Shown here: positions 7,547-54,809 of the stretch, piece by piece
How positions within the stretch are numbered: the first letter of the stretch is position 1
Layout: each line of letters starts with the position of its first letter
NCBI RefSeq assembly: GCF_900002575.1
Contig: NZ_LN650648.1
Span: 2,829,565-2,893,564 of the forward strand
DNA length: 64,000 bases
Source of the DNA: Romboutsia hominis
GTDB taxonomy: Bacteria; Bacillota; Clostridia; Peptostreptococcales; Peptostreptococcaceae
Direction of reading: 5' to 3'
Made by a program: the position numbers and the translations under genes
The notes under the pieces: generated by a model
Told to the model about the DNA's origin: nothing
What the model saw: the letters and a program-made list of their open reading frames with translations, nothing else
Database searches by the model: none

Positions 7547-8407
7547 TTAATAAATTATAGACTTAGGCATAGCCCATCTAAATTTACCTCTTGTTTCTGA
7601 CCCGCCTATACCCTTCATACCTGTAACAGTTTGCTCTATTACCTCTTCTATTGGTACTATAGTATCTATTCTTGAGCAAGCTATTTTTTCTACCACAAAA
7701 ACTGGATCTAGAGCATGTATCATTATTCTCCCTGGAGAGCTTGCATAATTTGCTCCTGCTTTGATTAACTGTTCATAATTTGACTGGCATGCTCCAGCAA
7801 ATATAACTAAATTATCTAGATTAGGTTGCCACTTTCTAGCTTGTTTTACTGTTTTAATAAAATTCATAGAGTTTTTATAATTGCTTAAATCTGTAGTGTT
7901 ACCTTTTTTAGAAGTTAAAGCATCATGACCAGTGATTACAAGTATATCTGGATTATGTTTTTCTAACAGTGCTCGTACTTCTTTATACTGATTAGGCTCT
8001 GGTATAGCAATTCCGACTGCCGGTATTCCTAACTCTGTATAAACATCTAAGCATAGTTTTAGATATTCTTTATCTCCATCAATTTGAAGGACCTTTCCTG
8101 GCATACCATAAACATTTGTATTCATTTGTAATTTCGGAACTGCCCTATTCATCTTTTTTTCTCTTTCCTTTGCTTTTCTCATTGATTGAGATATTAAGGA
8201 CTCTACATTTTTATCTAATAAAACATCTCTTATATTTGGTAATCTTACTGCCTCTAAATCATCTATTGGTGCATCAGCTAATATTCTAAATGCTACTCCT
8301 TTTAATATTGCCACTTTTTCATTTTTTTCATCTATGCTAAAAGCTATTATTTTAAATACTATATCTTTCCCATATGATTTTCTTACTACTATATCTCCTA
8401 TATTCAT
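7547..8407 (-). CDS. yabG: Sporulation-specific protease YabG
   Basis: YabG (peptidase family U57) processes spore coat and, in clostridia, germination proteins such as CspBA and SleC precursors. The 286-aa protein matches the family over its whole length: MNIGDIVVRKSYGKDIVFKI at the start, then LQIDGDKEYLKLCLDVY, PDILVITGHDAL, LVIFAGACQSNYEQLI, with candidate catalytic His and Cys in the last two blocks, and SPGRIMIHALDP. It lies head-to-head with psuK and upstream of veg, the common order in this class. Confidence 0.95.
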   Translation of the reverse strand: MNIGDIVVRKSYGKDIVFKIIAFSIDEKNEKVAILKGVAFRILADAPIDDLEAVRLPNIRDVLLDKNVESLISQSMRKAKEREKKMNRAVPKLQMNTNVYGMPGKVLQIDGDKEYLKLCLDVYTELGIPAVGIAIPEPNQYKEVRALLEKHNPDILVITGHDALTSKKGNTTDLSNYKNSMNFIKTVKQARKWQPNLDNLVIFAGACQSNYEQLIKAGANYASSPGRIMIHALDPVFVVEKIACSRIDTIVPIEEVIEQTVTGMKGIGGSETRGKFRWAMPKSIIY

Positions 8408-8492
8408 ATTCGTCCTCCCTAATAACTGTTATCTTAATCTATATTATGTTCGATACTTTTTTTTGTTCCTTAAGAATAAAAACATTTTATTG

Positions 8493-48981: not shown

Positions 48982-49323
48982 CTATGCTTTTTTTACAACG
49001 CTAGACTTTAATTTCATAGCTCCAAAACCGTCTATTTTACACTCTATATCGTGTCCATCAGCTGCATCTGGAACTAAACGTATACTCTTTACCTTTGTTC
49101 CTATTTTTATAGAAGATGAACTTCCCTTAACTTTAAGGTCTTTAACTACTGTTACAGCATCTCCATCTTTTAATACGTTTCCATTTACGTCTTTTATTAC
49201 AACTTCTTCTTCAACTGAATCAGTTGGATTCCATTCATATGCACACTCTGGGCAAACTAAAAGATTTCCATCTTCATATACATACTCTGAATTACATTTT
49301 GGGCAATTTGGTAAAGTTTCCAT
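48982..49323 (-). CDS. yjdM: YjdM/PhnA-family zinc ribbon protein
   Basis: A 113-aa protein: N-terminal zinc ribbon with [13 protein letters not shown] and CPECAYEW (four Cys), then the PhnA/YjdM domain [27 protein letters not shown]...IKIGTKVK and [17 protein letters not shown]. The family was once annotated as alkylphosphonate uptake protein, but no role in phosphonate metabolism is established and no phn genes lie nearby. The ATG at 49323 ([10 protein letters not shown]) follows GGAGG; the upstream frame reads through the site. Confidence 0.93.
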
Positions 49324-49344
49324 AATATTATTTCCTCCGTTCAA

Positions 49345-50793: not shown

Positions 50794-50913
50794 AAACACA
50801 ATTTCTAAATATACTTTCTTATGGCATAATCAAATTATTTTCTAAATAATTAAAGTAATTAAAATATAGGAGCTTACCTTTGATTTATGAAAAATATAGA
50901 ATATATGTAAAGA

Positions 50914-50939
50914 GGTCTATAAAATATATTTTATAGACC
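50914..50939. terminator. Palindromic hairpin between convergent genes
   Basis: A perfect 26-base palindrome beginning GGTCTATAAAATA lies between the dehydrogenase-like gene (plus) and the YmaF gene (minus). There is no good T-run, so the terminator role is assumed from position. Confidence 0.5.
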
Positions 50940-51013
50940 CTATTAAACTTAATTCTCTTTTTTATGCAATTATATTTTTAATCACAGTAAATTTTTATCT
51001 ATTTTTATAGAAT

Positions 51014-51532
51014 TTATACTAAAGGTGCTTGAATTTGGGTAGTGAAAAGGAAAATATGAAAATGGCCATCAACAACAGTAGTTTGTCCAGATACTAAATG
51101 AACATGTTTATTAGTTCCTGGTATTGGAATTGCTGGACCAGTTGTAACGCGTATTTGATGGAAATGATCTAAAAAGTCTGTATTGTCATTTCTGATTCTA
51201 TGAACATGGTTTGTCCCACCATTTATTGGAATAGCTTCTCCTGTAACACCAGCAACTCTATGATTATGTCTGTCATCGCCTTCTTCAGCTAATTTAACAC
51301 TTTCTGAGTATTCATGAACATGCGTCTGCATTTCGTCTTCTTCATGACAATTACAGCAATTACATTTATGCCAATTCATATGTTTACATTCATCTTCATT
51401 ATGACATTTACAGCAATTATCTCTATGACAATTCATATGTCTACATTCATCTTCATTATGATATCTCATACATTTAAAGCTGTTACCTCTATTATCATTA
51501 TCTCTTCTGCATCTATTATTTTGAAAACTCAT
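51014..51532 (-). CDS. YmaF-family protein with Cys/His-rich repeat head
   Basis: A 172-aa protein in two parts. Residues about 25-62 are two near-identical 19-residue repeats, HNEDECRHMNCHRDNCCKC and HNEDECKHMNWHKCNCCNC, with a third partial copy HEEDEMQTHVH. They supply at least ten Cys and several His, an obvious metal-binding array. Residues about 72-172 form the YmaF domain with regularly spaced His pairs: HNHRVAGVTGEAIP, NHVHRI, DHFHQI, HVHLVSG and GHFHIF. YmaF proteins occur in spore formers and have no known function. AGGAGAG ribosome binding site, monocistronic. Confidence 0.85.
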   Translation of the reverse strand: MSFQNNRCRRDNDNRGNSFKCMRYHNEDECRHMNCHRDNCCKCHNEDECKHMNWHKCNCCNCHEEDEMQTHVHEYSESVKLAEEGDDRHNHRVAGVTGEAIPINGGTNHVHRIRNDNTDFLDHFHQIRVTTGPAIPIPGTNKHVHLVSGQTTVVDGHFHIFLFTTQIQAPLV

Positions 51533-51954
51533 TCTTTCTCTCTCCTATTATATTATATTAAAAGACTCTTATAAGAAATCTCTTGATATAATATATATGA
51601 GCATTTGTCAATTTCGTTCCTATTTCTCGTTAATTTTACATAATTCCCTCCTTTACACACCACTATAATTTTTCGTTTTTTAGTAAACAATTTTCCCTTC
51701 ACTCTTGATACTTCTTACTTTTTTAGATTCCATTAATATGTATTAATAGTTAGATTATTATTAATCATAATACTCAAGTTAAAATAAAAGATTCTATTCA
51801 AAAAATATTATCCTCTTATATATTGAAACATCATCATTCCACTTTATTTCGTCAGAAAGGTGCTTTGGAATTAGTCTATATATTCTAATTTTTTATAAGT
51901 TATTGGTTAAAATAACATAAGTATTAAATATTTTAGGCAAAGGAGATATTTTAT
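51533..51954. other. 422-base gap
   Basis: AT-rich spacer between divergent YmaF and DUF421 genes. No open frame, repeat copy or good hairpin seen. A slightly richer patch at 51838-51880 may be leftover coding sequence, but no frame supports it. Confidence 0.5.
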
Positions 51955-52659
51955 ATGAACTTTTTAAATGGTCAAGAAACACTTAGCACCATTGACTGGA
52001 TACTTCGTGCTATTATTGCTTTTTTCTTTTTGCTAGCAATTGCAAAGTTATTAGGGCATCGTTCCATTTCTCAATTAAGACTAATTGATTTTGCTATTAC
52101 TTTAGTAATCGGTAATATTATTGCTCATCCATTGTCTGATGAAAAGCTTGGACTAGAAGGCTCCATCATTACAACACTTGTATTAGTTGTTCTATATATT
52201 TTGGGAGTATTCATAGTTCTTAAATTTCCGTACCTTGGAAAAATTATTAATAATCCACCAATCACGCTTATTCAAAATGGTGAAATCCTTTATAACGGGC
52301 TAAAAAAAGCACGAATATCAATCGATATATTATTAGAAGAATTACGTGAAAAAAAGGTAGAAGATCTGAAGAAAGTAGCATTAGCAACATTAGAGCCTAA
52401 TGGTAAAATTTCTATTTTTTTACATCCAGAATATGAGCCCATTACACCTTCACATTTGTCTATTAAAGTGGAACCTTTTGGTTTTCCAAGAACAATTATT
52501 AAAGATGGTAAAATTAACTTTGAACAGCTAAAAATGCTTAATAAAGATGAGAACTGGGTCGTTTCCAAATTAGAAAGTTTATATCAAGTCGATGTAAAAA
52601 ATGTTTTACTTGCCACACTTGATAATAAAGATAATTTAAATGTTTTTTTATATAAATAA
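51955..52659 (+). CDS. DUF421 (YetF/YrbG-like) membrane protein
   Basis: A 234-aa protein with three N-terminal membrane helices (about 17-36, 45-65 and 70-92) and a cytoplasmic DUF421 domain. Blocks are AKLLGHRSISQLRLIDFAITLVIGNIIAHPL, PPITLIQNGEILYNGLKKARISIDILLEELREK and ALATLEPNGKISIFL. Homologues in Bacillus are sporulation- or stress-linked membrane proteins of unknown activity. CGT and CGA Arg codons and a less biased codon choice than in the core genes hint at transfer. GGAGATATTTT ribosome binding site. Confidence 0.92.
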   Translation: MNFLNGQETLSTIDWILRAIIAFFFLLAIAKLLGHRSISQLRLIDFAITLVIGNIIAHPLSDEKLGLEGSIITTLVLVVLYILGVFIVLKFPYLGKIINNPPITLIQNGEILYNGLKKARISIDILLEELREKKVEDLKKVALATLEPNGKISIFLHPEYEPITPSHLSIKVEPFGFPRTIIKDGKINFEQLKMLNKDENWVVSKLESLYQVDVKNVLLATLDNKDNLNVFLYK

Positions 52660-54078: not shown

Positions 54079-54221
54079 CTTTATTTTCTCATTTATATTG
54101 TCACCTTTAAATTCATTAACTTCAATACAACTAAATGAAAATACAACTTTCTTGTGGGATAAGCACCTTCTCTAAACATATATCATAAAATATTATAAAG
54201 TCTATGAAAGGAATGAGAAAT

Positions 54222-54809
54222 ATGTTTAATGTTTGTGAACCATATACCTATTCTTACTGGATTAATACACCAATGTATAATATTTATAGAGGATATACAT
54301 ACCCTTACTGGGTTAATGCTCCAATGTATCCATACCCCTTCTGGACTAACACACCAATATATAACTCATACTTTAAGAGACAAACTACTAAATTGAAGGA
54401 TTATGGAGCAGAGCCATTTACAGTTAATATTGATGAAGCTACTAAGCAAAACAATACTTTTCGTACCGCTTTATGGACAGGAAACAATCTGCAAGTTACC
54501 TTAATGAGCATCGATGTTGGGGATGACATAGGTTTGGAAGTCCACCCAACAGGTGACCAATTCATACGTATTGAAGAAGGTCAAGGTCTTGTTAAAATGG
54601 GTGAGAATAAAGATAAATTGGACTTTGAAAGAGAAGTTCATGATGATTATGCCATCATGATACCTGCTGGTAAATGGCACAATGTAATCAATACGGGTGA
54701 TAAACCACTTAAATTGTATGCTATCTATGCCCCACCTGAGCATCCACATGGTACTGTTCATAAAACTAAAGCAGATGCAGAAGCTGCTGAGCATAACTCC
54801 GAGCATTAA
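54222..54809 (+). CDS. Cupin-domain protein with Tyr/Trp/Pro repeat head
   Basis: A 195-aa protein. Residues about 5-55 contain three aromatic repeats of the type (Y/F)W(I/V/T)N(T/A)P(M/I)Y, spaced by Tyr-rich links. Residues about 65-185 are a single cupin: NNLQVTLMSIDVGDDIGLEVHPTGDQFIRIEEGQG (motif 1, with His-x-x-x-Asp-Gln-Phe) and MIPAGKWHNVINTGDKPLKLYAIYAPPEHP (motif 2). The cupin is like sugar isomerase-type metal cupins found in Firmicutes. The tyrosine/tryptophan head resembles cross-linkable coat or surface segments. The ATG at 54222 follows AAAGGA best. Function unknown. Confidence 0.82.
   Translation: MFNVCEPYTYSYWINTPMYNIYRGYTYPYWVNAPMYPYPFWTNTPIYNSYFKRQTTKLKDYGAEPFTVNIDEATKQNNTFRTALWTGNNLQVTLMSIDVGDDIGLEVHPTGDQFIRIEEGQGLVKMGENKDKLDFEREVHDDYAIMIPAGKWHNVINTGDKPLKLYAIYAPPEHPHGTVHKTKADAEAAEHNSEH

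Follow-up and report, generated by a model that had tools for sequence, protein, structure and literature searches.

A YmaF-family protein of Romboutsia hominis with a cysteine-rich head: a candidate metal-binding protein of the spore surface

YmaF proteins form a family without known function that is present on C. difficile spores. The 64,000-nucleotide stretch of Romboutsia hominis DNA analysed here (the window) encodes a member in which the YmaF domain is preceded by a head rich in Cys and His. This locus raises the question of whether such a protein binds metal, through which of its two parts, and whether it does so on the spore. The initial annotation had argued from the head, seeing in it a metallothionein-like or zinc- or copper-storing module and suggesting on that basis that YmaF domains bind metal too and perhaps load it into the spore coat. 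Our analysis shifts the argument to the domain: judged from its sequence, the window protein is a YmaF-family protein, probably of the spore surface, that likely binds metal through its YmaF domain.

Organization of the gene and its surroundings

The gene occupies positions 51014..51532 of the minus strand (coordinates checked) as an open reading frame of 172 codons plus stop, with an ATG start codon and a ribosome-binding site, AGGAGAG, at 51540..51546 on the same strand. Residues 69-167 of the 172-aa protein match Pfam PF12788 (YmaF) with 118.3 bits against a curated cut-off of 27, and the whole protein has no match in NCBIfam. A profile search, with B. subtilis, which has the same Pfam family, as the control genome, found no other YmaF gene in the 3.04-Mb genome. 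A hairpin about 70 nt beyond the stop codon (50905..50945, minus strand; fold -13.5 kcal/mol, z -5.0) is a possible terminator shared with the convergent gene.

The head comprises aa 1-70 (51323..51532, minus strand) and contains 12 Cys and 7 His. It matches no Pfam family even at E values up to 10, and hence no metallothionein profile. It includes a tandem repeat with a period of 57 nt, equivalent to 19 aa, in 2.4 copies (TRF score 197), which on the minus strand resolves into repeat 1 (HNEDECRHMNCHRDNCCKC, aa 25-43, 51404..51460), repeat 2 (HNEDECKHMNWHKCNCCNC, aa 44-62, 51347..51403) and a partial repeat 3 (HEEDEM, aa 63-68, 51329..51346). At the DNA level, the two full copies share 84% identity. 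With HNEDEC... taken as the phase, both contain five Cys and three His, and all three His and four of the five Cys positions are retained between them. A search of the genome for a second copy of the head found none (next match E 0.13). The tandem Cys/His head and the YmaF domain behind it are thus as first described, as are the two 19-residue repeats with five Cys each; the count of "three or four His" per repeat becomes exactly three in both, and the third repeat is present as the six-residue stub only.

Two neighbouring genes were considered. Adjoining ymaF and divergent from it is a gene for a YetF/DUF421 membrane protein (51955-52659, plus strand); excerpts of a C. difficile study describe a DUF421 protein of that organism as sigma-G dependent and detected in spores (PMC3789822). 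A YjdM/PhnA-type zinc-ribbon gene (48982-49344, minus strand) lies about 2 kb from ymaF, and C. difficile has a close YjdM/PhnA homologue within 1.5 kb of its ymaF (positions 2408-2752 of locus L030), in another gene order. A conserved neighbourhood was rejected: besides the difference in order, YjdM/PhnA is not within about 4 kb of ymaF in the Romboutsia compared with the window.

Histidines and internal repeats of the YmaF domain

The YmaF domain (aa 71-172; 51017..51322, minus strand) contains no Cys. Its six HxH pairs, starting at residues 71, 89, 109, 123, 143 and 157, hold all 12 of its His, in agreement with the regularly spaced pairs noted initially; shuffling the domain gave at least six HxH in 4 of 20,000 sequences. 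We compared this arrangement across relatives. YmaF was found in 22 of 71 genomes of the same family, in 45 of 291 in a sample of the class and in 97 of 398, about a quarter, in a sample of the phylum Bacillota. The 86 distinct open reading frames collected are the best loci of each search (at most 30) plus five named loci, so that weak members are under-sampled, and eight of them come from close Clostridioides species and are not independent. The whole domain is covered by 69 of the 86; 65 of these have an assignable start codon, by a simple ribosome-site score, and 64 have enough upstream sequence for promoter analysis.

In the 69 full-length domains among these best matches, the invariant columns are the twelve His of the six HxH pairs and nothing else, the next-best column being a Thr at 94%. 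The same twelve columns, and no others, stay invariant when redundancy is reduced to below 85, 60 and 45% identity, which leaves 52, 30 and 12 sequences, respectively; the lowest identity of a full-length domain to that of the window is 26%. Counted over whole open reading frames, 74 of the 86 best matches have exactly six HxH, and the remaining 12 either are broken or split copies or carry additional HxH outside the domain, in the head, the upstream frame or the tail. One exception lies outside this set, in a YmaF gene on a viral contig (L092) that reads HHR at pair 4. The fixed number of six suits a closed fold.

Several members depart from the window protein in other respects. Two genomes, both from one genus, have extra YmaF copies (L024 and L026, also L025 and L027) that are broken or truncated and lie beside intact ones; the extra copies could be products of gene decay or frameshifted paralogues. 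A Gly-rich subfamily (L080-L091), about 100 aa long and almost headless, has clean HxHxYxGxT repeats and is perhaps closest to the ancestral repeat. Appendages also occur at the opposite end of the domain, as Cys-rich tails with 9 Cys (L074 and L075) and as a long RDRDWD repeat tail (L082).

The median spacings of successive HxH pairs are 18, 18, 14, 19 and 14 residues (the first varies between 12 and 28, its modes being 18 and 14), a pattern that points to three units of two pairs each. In the window protein these are unit 1 (aa 71-108, HVH...HNH, 51209..51322), unit 2 (aa 109-142, HVH...HFH, 51107..51208) and unit 3 (aa 143-172, HVH...HFH, 51017..51106), all on the minus strand. Profile-profile alignment of units cut at the HxH pairs gave strong scores. 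Because cutting at the pairs by itself aligns the His, every His was then masked; the units still aligned with E values of 2.6e-9, 1.2e-7 and 5.2e-6, against 0.024, 0.27 and 0.33 for reversed-template controls. The units are thus homologous beyond their His, and profile comparison shows the YmaF domain to be built of three homologous units with two HxH pairs each.

At the level of sequence, the twelve-histidine rule and the triplication are the sharp result of this work. The former makes YmaF function directly testable, since only these twelve His never change, and the latter supplies a fold logic for solving a YmaF structure. The 12 invariant His in 69 of 69 full-length domains make it very likely that YmaF domains bind metal. 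This part of the earlier proposal is therefore upheld on other grounds; the domain argues for metal by itself, so that the inference from head to domain had run in the wrong direction. Published work makes no such connection in what we could compare: the accessible text on YmaF and CD3620, including PMC4924792, does not mention metal, the words 'metal', 'zinc' and 'histidine' are absent from PMC13339774, and among the matches listed for metal, metallothionein and His-rich spore proteins there was nothing on YmaF.

Association with sporulation

We scanned the 160 nt upstream of each start for a sigma-K-type motif, defined as AC, 14-17 nt and CATANNNTA. The exact pattern and spacing are our own, modelled on the B. 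subtilis consensus. An AC element with a CATA-type -10 has been described for C. difficile sigma K (PMC3789822, in excerpt). Among the best-matching loci, the motif lies upstream of 32 of 65 YmaF genes compared with 1.26 expected from shuffles. In a positional control it was present in 31 of 64 upstream regions of 160 nt, against 0/64, 0/63, 1/63, 1/63 and 0/62 in other windows, and in 2 of 64 on the opposite strand; the sites fall mostly 56-86 nt before the start. A sigma-E-type motif gave no signal (5 of 65 against 4.1 expected). The window gene has a degenerate candidate promoter of this type, AC-N16-CATATATAT, at 51591..51617 on the minus strand, 85 nt upstream of the ATG. It has two mismatches, in the distal TA, and is in register with the strict C. 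difficile motif, at the same distance from the start as in relatives.

Elsewhere in the window, yabG (Peptidase U57; 7550-8407, minus strand) has a sigma-K-type motif at 8466, and we used this gene as a positive control in the motif scan. A cupin gene (54165-54809, plus strand) with a strict sigma-K-type motif at 54165 encodes a Tyr/Trp/Pro-rich repetitive head. It shares with ymaF the plan of a low-complexity head joined to a His-type metal domain, and its product is likely to be another spore-surface protein.

YmaF also occurs together with spoIVA, which is present in this genome (E 2e-113). In the phylum sample, spoIVA is found in 96 of 97 YmaF-bearing Bacillota genomes against 336 of 398 overall (Fisher 1.4e-7), and in the family sample in 22 of 22 against 54 of 71 (p 6e-4), both p-values being generous because the genomes are related. 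YmaF is absent from 240 of the 336 spoIVA genomes.

Experimental data come from C. difficile, whose CD3620/CDIF27147_03838 has a domain about 78% identical to that of the window over the matched part; its head is unlike the window head, being 33 aa long and Cys/Tyr-rich, with no His and no 19-residue repeat. In the published excerpts, CD3620 is detected in spores, and its expression ratio is 0.34 for a sigE mutant and 0.04 for a sigK mutant (PMC3789822). Extracts of exosporium/coat yielded its homologue CDIF27147_03838, which bound E-cadherin on far-Western blotting; the binding peptides precede the domain, though synthetic peptides failed to prevent spores from binding (PMC13339774, in excerpt). 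The suggested link of the protein to the spore is therefore supported by sigma-K-type promoters, by co-occurrence with spoIVA and by published C. difficile data, and the hypothesis that places a metal-binding YmaF domain at the spore surface is well supported.

Predicted fold, proposed metal sites and the probable role of the head

AlphaFold2 predictions from nine sequences gave models with pLDDT 83 and pTM 0.73 when the window domain was first and with pLDDT 75 and pTM 0.61 with another first sequence. Both are all-beta with six strands, the first having in addition one short helical turn, and in both each HxH pair either begins a strand or comes just before one. Foldseek found no match at E <0.01 in the PDB for either model or in BFVD for the first. 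The best VIA match was the designed barrel BBn6, with Z scores of 5.4 and 5.9 that are below the level the tool calls telling, and the best structural neighbours, all weak, are small antiparallel meander barrels (BBn6, OmpX, PagP, YceI and avidins). Phage HxH fibres are not among the VIA matches listed, which excludes nothing. Sequence searches of the PDB for a solved homologue gave only the chain Scone-R (E 0.011), whose matching stretches fail on their own, and the matches of the Gly-rich subfamily are due to chance; both candidates were rejected.

In an up-and-down barrel with every pair at a strand start, successive pairs would alternate between the two ends, so that six His would cluster at one end (pairs 1, 3 and 5) and six at the other (pairs 2, 4 and 6). 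From the topology of the models we infer a small six-stranded barrel of this kind. The protein itself would be a sigma-K-type (mother-cell) spore coat or exosporium protein in two parts. In the YmaF domain, the six strands would close into a small antiparallel barrel and each six-His cluster would hold a transition metal of the iron or zinc class, stapling a small domain into a very stable module, much as HxH triplets on iron do in trimeric phage fibres but within one chain. The head would be a fast-evolving arm, rich in Cys and probably disordered, that anchors the module in the spore surface chiefly through disulfides, possibly with extra metal binding in the window species. Taken as a whole, this explanation is the one we judge probable. 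If true, it adds a metal-stapled module to the ways in which spores build tough surfaces. A bolder form of it sees in YmaF a pseudo-trimer made from one chain, whose triplicated barrel of six strands has a six-His metal site at each end; this would be the phage-fibre HxH site rebuilt in one chain, serving as a widespread metal staple of spore surfaces onto which lineage-specific cross-linking heads have been grafted. We offer this form tentatively and hold it to be rather doubtful.

The heads of 65 genes among the best-matching loci, including that of the window, bear on what the Cys-rich arm does. At least four Cys are present in 12 of 23 heads within the family against 2 of 42 outside it, and 51 of the 65 have fewer than four. 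At least four of both Cys and His occur in 4 of the 23 family heads, those of the window protein and of L003, L008 and L012 from one other genus. In Clostridioides, the head has 5 to 8 Tyr alongside 3 to 6 Cys and lacks His; the g5 heads are composed of Arg, Asp and Cys and that of L070 of Pro and Cys, the L014 head has CxCxCxC, and several domains are nearly headless. Repeats recur with other periods, 66 nt in L020 (3.4 copies) and 51 nt in L070 (3.2 copies), and the head of L018, a sister of L020, is half as long, so that repeat number does vary between YmaF proteins as had been anticipated. Because composition and repeats differ in this way among relatives, the sequences identify the head as a fast-evolving appendage that has repeatedly turned Cys-rich.

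A protein that is simply a coat cross-linker would account for such heads: their disulfides would act as in CsxA and ExsY, and the domain His would serve assembly or a pH response without metal. Disulfide self-assembly of Cys-rich proteins is described as a general feature of spore surfaces (PMC7333573, in excerpt), and excerpts of PMC13339774 report that C. difficile YmaF is insoluble in E. coli like other coat proteins. We nevertheless consider this reading unlikely, because it leaves unexplained why invariance is confined to exactly twelve His in HxH pairs and because the window protein's own domain lacks Cys.

Alternatively, the head could be the metallothionein-like zinc or copper store of the initial annotation, gathering metal in the mother cell and handing it to the YmaF domain and then to the coat. 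The density of Cys and His in 70 aa, their retention between the repeats, the similarly rich heads of another genus and the CxCxCxC of L014 speak for it. Its Cys and His are, however, unconserved even within the family, as the Clostridioides and g5 heads illustrate. Among homologues the domain His are thus conserved and the head Cys and His are not, and a metallothionein-like, metal-loading head finds no support, given this lack of conservation, the mere four of 23 family heads rich in both residues and the empty Pfam search. Most YmaF domains make the case for metal in the absence of any Cys/His-rich head. We regard a metal store as distinctly improbable. Disulfide cross-linking by the head is at least as likely as a metallothionein role, which is possible, and metal binding by the head is an extra possibility where His joins Cys.

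Last, YmaF could form true trimers with one HxH per chain per level and six metals on a three-fold axis, as in T4 gp37, and be possibly phage-derived, since phage fibres have octahedral iron sites of the same motif (PMC6116203, in excerpt) and one distant Gly-rich member has a weak tail-fibre profile match in PHROGs (E 0.045); we consider this very improbable, because searches of 50,697 phage records and of PHROGs gave no match to the window protein, the models resemble barrels rather than fibres, and a single-chain ring fits better with a pair number fixed at six and a chain that is itself triplicated. Scanning with the Gly-rich subfamily revealed no viral relative, and two other scans placed YmaF genes on a few IMG/VR contigs. 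One of these, IMGVR_UViG_2718218017_000006 (112 kb), carries the same YmaF gene twice about 56 kb apart (L095 and L096) and could be a duplicated or doubly assembled contig. A further YmaF gene lies at 84948-85331 of NZ_CP149720.1, a C. difficile record of 163 kb from the plasmid collection.

The preferred two-part protein can be set beside several known systems. Bacterial metallothioneins of the SmtA/BmtA type combine dense Cys with some His, as does the window head, which differs from them in lacking a profile match and in a Cys/His pattern that is unconserved among the 65 heads. CsxA, ExsY/CotY, CdeC and CdeM differ in being lattice-forming or morphogenetic proteins that are not known to have a YmaF domain. 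Like the window protein, they are Cys-rich and belong to the spore surface (PMC7333573 and PMC13339774, in excerpt); in the window protein, the Cys are confined to a short head. B. subtilis YmaF belongs to the same Pfam family and is encoded by a sporulation gene, but one with an early sporulation promoter (sigma E/F) ahead of miaA-hfq, not a sigma K promoter (PMC4410918, in excerpt), and its Tn-seq germination score may reflect polarity on hfq, which scored too (PMC6568419, in excerpt). The closest parallel in motif is with phage and pyocin fibres. In R-type pyocin fibres, HxH from three chains hold iron octahedrally in a six-His site, and similar iron sites occur in T4 gp37, P2 gpV and others (PMC6116203 and PMC11705849, in excerpt). 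These sites resemble YmaF in their paired His two residues apart, a likeness of motif only. The fibres are homotrimers that contribute one HxH per chain to each site, whereas in YmaF three pairs of a single chain would make up each site.
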